From Sulfurimonas sp. HSL-3221 (lineage in GTDB: Bacteria; Campylobacterota; Campylobacteria; Campylobacterales; Sulfurimonadaceae): a stretch of 64,000 nucleotides of DNA. The notes below the pieces were generated by a model. The model did no database searches and had not been told where the DNA came from. It saw only the letters and a list, made by a program, of their open reading frames with translations. Location: contig NZ_CP087998.1 in assembly GCF_021044585.1 (NCBI RefSeq), forward strand, positions 930,001 to 994,000, given 5' to 3'. Of the stretch, positions 62,651 through 63,977 are shown in pieces. Each line of letters opens with the position of its first letter. Position 1 is the first letter of the stretch. A program made the position numbers and the translations under genes.

Positions 62651-62842
62651 ATGTCTCAGAAAGTGCAAGTCAAAATCGAAGGTCTCCCGGAGGGAGCTGT
62701 CAGTGCCGAAACAATGCAGAAAAAGATCATGAAGAACATCGTTGCCGAGATCAAATCTGCCAATATGGACGGGCTGAACCCCTTCGACCTCGATATTGAC
62801 GCAGGTCTGGATGTCGCCGTTGAGATGACGCCGGGCGCCTGA
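62651..62842 (+). CDS. 63-residue candidate RiPP precursor or partner peptide
   Basis: The peptide starts MSQKVQVKIEGLPEG, has no signal peptide and no cysteine, and ends FDLDIDAGLDVAVEMTPGA with the single aromatic F45. GAGGGTCG lies near the ATG. It is followed 46 bp later by a radical SAM/SPASM gene of the peptide-modifying group, with a hairpin between. Alternatively it is a small conserved protein of other use. No standard precursor motif (XYE, GRR or FxSxx) is present. Confidence 0.55.
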   Translation: MSQKVQVKIEGLPEGAVSAETMQKKIMKNIVAEIKSANMDGLNPFDLDIDAGLDVAVEMTPGA

Positions 62843-62857
62843 CGTTCGTCAATGCTG

Positions 62858-62877
62858 CCGCCGCTCTCCCGCGGCGG
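62858..62877 (+). terminator. Hairpin between peptide and radical SAM genes
   Basis: CCGCCGC (62858-62864) and GCGGCGG (62871-62877) pair around TCTCCC, followed by CGGATGCTTTT. This could partly end transcription, giving more peptide mRNA than enzyme mRNA, and it overlaps the weak ribosome site of the next gene. Confidence 0.5.
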
Positions 62878-62888
62878 CGGATGCTTTT

Positions 62889-63977
62889 ATGATCGCTTCC
62901 GTAATTCTAAAACTGACCGAAACGTGCAATCTCGACTGCACCTACTGTTATATGTTCAATTCCGAAGACAAGACCTACACGCGTGTCCCGAAATTTATGC
63001 CCCTCGAGACAGGCCTGAAGGCGCTTGAGCGTATCGCCGATTATCTTGGGGAACATCCCGAGCGGCGTATACGCCTCGTCCTGCACGGCGGTGAGCCGTC
63101 GCTGTGGCCGGAAGCATCCATGACCCCTTTCCTGGAGGCGGCCGGTGCGCTGCGGCGGGAGACAAAGCGGCTCAGCATCGGTCTGCAGACGAATCTCTAC
63201 GACTACGATGCAGCGCTGCTGCAGCGGGTCGCGGCGGCGGGCGGTTCCATCGGGGTAAGCCTGGACGGACCGGCGGCCTATAACGATCAACGACGCGTCA
63301 CAAAAGGGGGAGGCGGCAGCTACGAGCGGGTCGCGGAGAACCTGAAGCGGCTTGACGCGGACGGGCTGCTCCCCTTTTTCGGCGGAGTCCTGAGCGTGGC
63401 GGACCCCGACATCCCGCCCGAAGACTATCTTGCCTGGATCAAGACGCTGCCGAAAAAGCGTGTCAGCGTGCTCTGGCCCATCCACTACAACTACGATGCG
63501 CCCCCAACGCATGATTACGGGGCGTGGTACGCCGAGCTTTTCCGGCTGTGGGCAGAGGCGGACGACCCCTCGATTGATATCCGCATCTTCCGCGACGCGA
63601 TCAAGCGGATGCTGGGCTCTTCGCACCACGGCGACGGCGTCGGGGGCGAAAGGCTCAACAGCGTCATCGTCAACAGCGACGGGCAGTATGAACGCCATGA
63701 CTACCTGCGCTATTTTGCCGACGGGGCGGTACGGACGGAATTCAACGTCCGCGAGCACGGGCTGGAGACGGCCGCGCAGGACCCGGTCATCCGCCGCTGC
63801 ACCGATCTGCGCGAAACGCTGCCGCCGGAGTGCGTTGCCTGCGGACACTACGAGGTCTGCGGCGGGGGCTTTGTCGCCAATCGGCTCGGCGGGGAAGGGG
63901 TGGATTTTTCGCGCAAATCGGTGATGTGCGGGGATCACCAGCGCTTCTTTGACACGGTCCGTTCCTACATTGGCTGA
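62889..63977 (+). CDS. Radical SAM/SPASM peptide-maturase-like protein
   Basis: The 362-residue protein begins ILKLTETCNLDCTYC, with CxxxCxxC cluster cysteines at 13, 17 and 20, and continues CYMFNSEDKTYTRVPKFM, the wording of the XYE/GrrM/FxsB-type group that forms cyclophane cross-links in peptides. The C-terminal SPASM domain has CVACGHYEVCGGG and further cysteines (RRCTDL, SVMCGDH) for auxiliary clusters. It follows the small peptide gene. A transporter, if any, would lie past the window. Confidence 0.88.
   Translation: MIASVILKLTETCNLDCTYCYMFNSEDKTYTRVPKFMPLETGLKALERIADYLGEHPERRIRLVLHGGEPSLWPEASMTPFLEAAGALRRETKRLSIGLQTNLYDYDAALLQRVAAAGGSIGVSLDGPAAYNDQRRVTKGGGGSYERVAENLKRLDADGLLPFFGGVLSVADPDIPPEDYLAWIKTLPKKRVSVLWPIHYNYDAPPTHDYGAWYAELFRLWAEADDPSIDIRIFRDAIKRMLGSSHHGDGVGGERLNSVIVNSDGQYERHDYLRYFADGAVRTEFNVREHGLETAAQDPVIRRCTDLRETLPPECVACGHYEVCGGGFVANRLGGEGVDFSRKSVMCGDHQRFFDTVRSYIG

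Follow-up and report, generated by a model that had tools for sequence, protein, structure and literature searches.

A putative two-gene RiPP cassette of cyclophane type in Sulfurimonas sp. HSL-3221

The window analysed here, a stretch of 64,000 nucleotides from the single-contig 2.52-Mb genome of Sulfurimonas sp. HSL-3221, has as its last genes an operon-like pair encoding a small peptide and a radical SAM enzyme. The reading of this pair as a RiPP precursor and its cyclophane-type maturase is well supported, because the two genes strictly co-occur, the family and the predicted fold of the enzyme point to cyclophane synthases, and precursor-like ORFs lie beside all the relatives in its clade. 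The enzyme falls in a rare branch of its family, and the product of the pair is probably a modified peptide that is crosslinked at an unusual site. We propose, with a probability of about 0.5, that the two genes form a two-gene cassette whose product carries a Phe-to-Leu-Cbeta cyclophane between F45 and L47.

The gene pair and its distribution

The order of peptide gene, GC hairpin and maturase gene, proposed in a preliminary description made from the sequence, was confirmed at the positions given in Table 1. The gap between the two ORFs is 46 nt and holds the hairpin, and AAGAGGG sits 5' of the start of the peptide ORF. The ORF translation also bears out that the peptide has a single aromatic residue, F45 in NPFDLD, and no Cys; Tyr, His and Arg are absent as well. 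Upstream of the peptide gene lies a cytochrome-c-like gene, based on weak Pfam matches below the cut-off. Downstream of the maturase, beyond the window, we named by eye a PEBP-like protein, a membrane protein, a GGDEF protein and hisG-type housekeeping genes.

Table 1. Features of the peptide-maturase locus (positions in the window)
Feature	Position	Strand	Details
Precursor peptide gene, 63 aa	62651..62842	+	ATG 62651, stop 62840-62842
Intercistronic GC hairpin	62855..62880	+	10 pairs, loop 6, then ATGCTTTT
Radical SAM peptide maturase, 362 aa, cyclophane-synthase-like	62889..63977	+	assigned by family, fold and tree

We surveyed 100 genomes, i.e. the source genome (G000) and 99 relatives. The peptide is carried by five of them (G000, G004, G005, G007 and G031) and the maturase by the identical five, always in adjacent genes with a gap of 40-48 nt. 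A phylum-wide draw of 397 genomes gave four matches to the peptide profile, each an already known carrier of the pair, and G031 was not among these matches. Peptide homologues without the maturase, which the preliminary description had regarded as evidence against a RiPP locus, were thus seen in none of the 100 genomes, and the 397 genomes added no new one. The peptide had no match on plasmids. The viral contigs scanned with the maturase gave no relative, and those scanned with an eight-row alignment gave two partial matches of 26-30% (L045 and L046).

Within the genus, the surroundings of the pair, 18-20 kb, are collinear in G004, G005 and G007 (79-96% nucleotide identity, in pieces), and in G031 nothing except the pair itself aligns, which argues that the two genes are a unit. 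For G003, a sister genome without the pair (L051), the alignment breaks off within the upstream vanX-like gene and picks up again within the PEBP-like gene. This would fit a deletion of the segment with the pair that joined the remains of these two genes, or an assembly effect in this draft genome. There is no sign of a recent transfer of the pair, G000 and G031 sharing 92% identity in hisG, 74% in the maturase and 87% in the peptide. In G031 a PF10014 2OG-Fe dioxygenase (76 bits) is encoded at 7536-8603 of L016 on the minus strand, about 0.6-0.8 kb downstream of the maturase. We rejected it as a part of the cassette since an ORF lies in between and the other five of the six genomes searched have no PF10014 match.

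The peptide ORF is a real gene and is more constrained than its own enzyme, because its pN/pS is 0.06-0.16 in nine pairwise comparisons of the five species (the tenth pair has no synonymous change) versus 0.19-0.26 in the three pairs compared for the maturase. The peptides of the other four carriers are 87-98% identical to that of the window. Residues 35-55, F45 included, are invariant in all five peptides, and Cys is absent from every one. Searches of the window peptide against PHROGs, Pfam and, at E<=1, NCBIfam gave no family, and two unrelated Pfam families matched by two of the five peptides (E 0.16-0.17) were taken as chance. Its predicted secondary structure has an N-terminal strand at residues 4-10 and a helix at residues 19-36 in a low-confidence model (pLDDT 54.9), and a fold search with this model was set aside as the model is too uncertain. 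We place the putative core from about N43, holding F45-D46-L47-D48.

Residues 32-57 of the peptide (62744-62821 in the window) have a faint, not significant resemblance to ankyrin-repeat capping segments (summed E 0.008, best single stretch i-E 64). The peptide gene could on this ground be independent of the enzyme; it might encode, for example, a small partner protein or part of a repeat protein, with the enzyme acting on something else. However, none of the five peptides has an ankyrin family among its Pfam matches at E<=10. The strict co-occurrence and adjacency, which hold also in G031 where the pair alone aligns, and the small ORFs found upstream of the enzyme in its outside relatives make this explanation unlikely.

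The intergenic stretch of the window folds with z -3.4. Across the five genomes the fold is strong in two (z about -3), moderate in two (z -1.7 and -2.1) and at the shuffle level in the remaining one (z 0.17), and the stem sequences differ among the genomes. The region yields 2 terminator-like calls where 1.7 are expected by chance. The hairpin is a possible attenuator, and from its place between the two genes it may tune the ratio of precursor to enzyme.

Affiliation of the radical SAM enzyme

A radical SAM domain was found by Pfam in the maturase, and no SPASM domain matched at E<=1. The full cysteine set of the auxiliary clusters in a SPASM domain is a seven-cysteine motif. The maturase has cysteines at positions 13, 17, 20, 304, 315, 318, 324 and 347, and perhaps binds one auxiliary cluster, because C315, C318, C324 and C347 align with cysteines of ChlB. 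The top three NCBIfam models are all cyclophane maturases, namely YhhB (NF041707; 229.6 bits against a cut-off of 445), FxsB (TIGR04269; 215.3 against 370) and XyeB (TIGR04496; 114.1 against 450), and the enzyme stays under each cut-off. Five other members of its clade score 231-261 bits against the YhhB model. Judged from these sequence scores, the enzyme belongs to the FxsB/YhhB/XyeB/ChlB group and is a member of no existing model.

ChlB, the multiple cyclophane synthase of the ChlA/ChlB system (PDB 9gm3 and 9gmc), is the best solved structure by sequence (E 3.4e-37) and the best fold match (TM 0.82, 28% identity) of our AlphaFold2 model, which was built from eight sequences with pLDDT 82.5. 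The match covers nearly the whole window enzyme, and in the alignment its radical SAM cysteines and its Cx2Cx5C...C set coincide with those of ChlB. ChlB differs in combining a radical SAM domain and an aKG-HExxH hydroxylase in one fusion protein, as described in an excerpt of PMC12636437, whereas the window enzyme lacks the hydroxylase domain. The second-best fold is anSME (TM about 0.76), and the anSME model gives 102 bits, which could suggest that the enzyme is sulfatase-maturase-like or of ranthipeptide type and produces formylglycine or thioethers. We consider this very improbable, as that score is far under the cut-off of 349 and below the cyclophane models, and no peptide of the five species has Cys.

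Among the known cyclophane systems, YhhA/YhhB/YhhC, with its Tyr/His-to-Arg rings, resembles the window locus in giving the best NCBIfam model and in its precursor-maturase order. However, the YhhA precursors examined end in YDR...HNR, and the window peptide has no Tyr, His or Arg. The window peptide has no match to the YhhA model (NF041705) at E<=1 while two annotated YhhA peptides do match, and YhhB, whose model gives the window enzyme 230 bits against 445, lies on a separate branch of our tree. A YhhC 2OG oxygenase gene is present in the YhhA/YhhB locus of a Vibrio plasmid. The FxsB family, including MscB (Phe-x-Ser) and HaaB, is the second-best model for the window enzyme at 215 bits against 370, and differs in having Ser at the acceptor position, where the window peptide has Leu; FxsB and HaaB have one representative each in the tree, with the window enzyme apart from both. 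The triceptide systems XyeA/XyeB and GrrM/OscB share a small precursor, a radical SAM enzyme and an aromatic i to i+2 arrangement, but their acceptors, in the portion of the literature covered, are Asn, Arg or Asp and not Leu, and the model scores are low (XyeB 114 against 450, GrrM/OscB 53 against 310 bits).

We scanned genome contigs and found 15 loci, seven of which encode enzymes with 39-46% identity to the maturase over nearly its full length (L017, L018, L019, L020, L021, L022 and L030, from Pseudomonadota and Streptomyces, with L018 from Polaromonas and L021 from Streptomyces canus). In a tree of 28 rows these seven group with the five enzymes of the window's own family (support 100/100) on a stem of 1.73, which is long. 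The resulting 12-member clade stands apart from the representatives of YhhB, FxsB, HaaB and XyeB used; some outgroup branches are long (L029 with XyeB), and the deep order outside the clade is not settled. Family- or genus-wide searches around three outside relatives gave the known carriers only (1/299, 1/200 and 1/246) under strict E limits of 1e-90 to 1e-100 with only 4-9 first-look candidates scored in the genomes listed, so that weaker members may be missed.

In each of the seven outside relatives a small ORF on the same strand, chosen from several overlapping ORFs, lies 44-80 nt upstream of the enzyme. The preliminary description suggested checking whether homologues of the maturase always have a peptide of this type; a small precursor-like ORF on the same strand lies upstream, 40-80 nt from the enzyme, in 12 of the 12 clade members. 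The outside precursors are alike in part (L020 versus L021, E 5e-13; L017 versus L019, L020 and L021, 6e-5 to 9e-5, in a tiny database). The claim of a RiPP peptide with a cyclophane-type maturase is thus supported by the co-occurrence in 5 of the 100 genomes, the enzyme family, the ChlB fold and these upstream ORFs.

A homologous ORF follows the enzyme in L018, L019, L022 and L030. The one in L018 (7148-8419) is an aKG-HExxH peptide beta-hydroxylase encoded as a separate gene (96.6 bits against a cut-off of 40), a known partner in cyclophane pathways according to an excerpt of PMC12636437. A search by pattern found no HExxH ORF near the enzyme in L017, L020, L021 or the surroundings of the window pair; the pattern matches elsewhere lie in other ORFs.

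Related arrangements were observed at more distant loci. In a Pseudolabrys MAG (L027, 5432-5953) two tandem precursor-like peptides with C-terminal His-x-Lys motifs, one also with Tyr-x-Arg, are followed by a radical SAM enzyme of 30% identity to that of the window. Two Dyadobacter loci (L023, 5625-5985, and the like stretch of L024) have small ORFs directly 5' of a radical SAM enzyme of 28-29% identity.

The aromatic-x-Leu motif and other possible chemistries

The motif [FW]-x-L is present in 12 of the 12 clade precursors. It reads FDL in the five peptides of the window's family (F45-D46-L47 in the window), FGL and FSL in L017, FGL in L018, L019, L022 and L030, WGL and FTL in L020, and FTL, besides WDM, in L021. 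In joint shuffles of five representative peptides, [FWY]-x-[LM] occurred in all five in a fraction 0.00095 of 20,000, which is not a clean probability as the motif was chosen post hoc and the outside precursors are related. For the window peptide alone the motif has p 0.12 in shuffles.

Three-residue cyclophanes based on Phe are known from MscB, and the acceptors named in the excerpted text of the same source are Asn, Arg, Asp, Ser and Ala (PMC11002830). Against that excerpt, the window core has no aromatic-x-acceptor of a reported kind, since its F-D-L places Leu in the acceptor position. Our literature search, partial in coverage such that an earlier account of the clade or of aromatic-x-Leu is possible, found no description of the pair and no Leu acceptor.

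Profile comparisons between the window and outside precursors are not significant. The window peptide gives E 2-11 by hmmsearch against the profile of the outside precursors, with shuffled decoys scoring higher; the window profile gives E 5 for the sole outside peptide among the matches listed, below shuffled decoys; and hhalign gives P 0.028. In the best register A51-G52-L53-D54 lies over the [FW]GL[KD] of the relatives, F45 falls on a non-aromatic column, and A51 and V55 fall on the relatives' aromatic columns.

This register would fit a genuine RiPP pair with another chemistry, e.g. an i to i+3 ring (F45-D48), an aliphatic crosslink, an epimerisation or a cyclopropyl-type change in GLDVAV, as would the invariance of the whole of residues 35-55 and not of FDL alone. 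In excerpts of PMC9062424, TvgB of the wider radical SAM superfamily turns Val into cyclopropylglycine, and Aro-x-x-Asn precursors are proposed to yield larger rings. The profile alignment behind the register is however not significant, the nearest families and the nearest fold are cyclophane synthases, and F45 is invariant. We consider these other chemistries a possible explanation, less probable than the F45-L47 cyclophane.

Proposed product and its meaning

The F45-L47 cyclophane could arise as follows. The N-terminal part of the peptide, with its strand and helix, would serve as the leader and would bind to the radical SAM enzyme. Reasoning from ChlB and the other cyclophane synthases, we would expect the enzyme radical to abstract a beta-hydrogen and the carbon radical at Cbeta then to attack the aromatic ring two residues before. 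The ring of F45 would be joined to Cbeta of L47. The resulting three-residue cyclophane would lie in the invariant stretch NPFDLDIDAGLDV, and the peptide would be 2 Da lighter. In L018, L019, L022 and L030 the product of the downstream hydroxylase-type gene would introduce a hydroxyl group, in the manner of the fused ChlB-type protein.

Among the ORFs adjoining the pair, judged by eye, we recognised no transporter or exporter, peptidase, tailoring enzyme or immunity gene. Our analysis suggests a conserved physiological role of the product rather than an antimicrobial one, because the core is invariant and no exporter, immunity gene or peptidase was recognised beside the pair.

As for the possible new class or chemistry raised in the preliminary description, our data support novelty only for the clade and the precursor family; the chemistry stays a hypothesis, and the variant looks new within a known class. 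We speculate, with considerable doubt, that the 12 clade members are peptide cyclases of a new family that use an unactivated aliphatic acceptor in aromatic-x-Leu, sometimes with hydroxylation of a neighbouring residue, and that the product in the window is an invariant cofactor-like or signalling peptide constrained more than its own enzyme.

Should Leu prove to be the acceptor, radical SAM cyclophane synthases would have a scope that takes in an unactivated aliphatic side chain, and the two-gene cassette is a convenient system for testing this. The strict conservation of the core poses the question of the role of a crosslinked peptide that is not being diversified.
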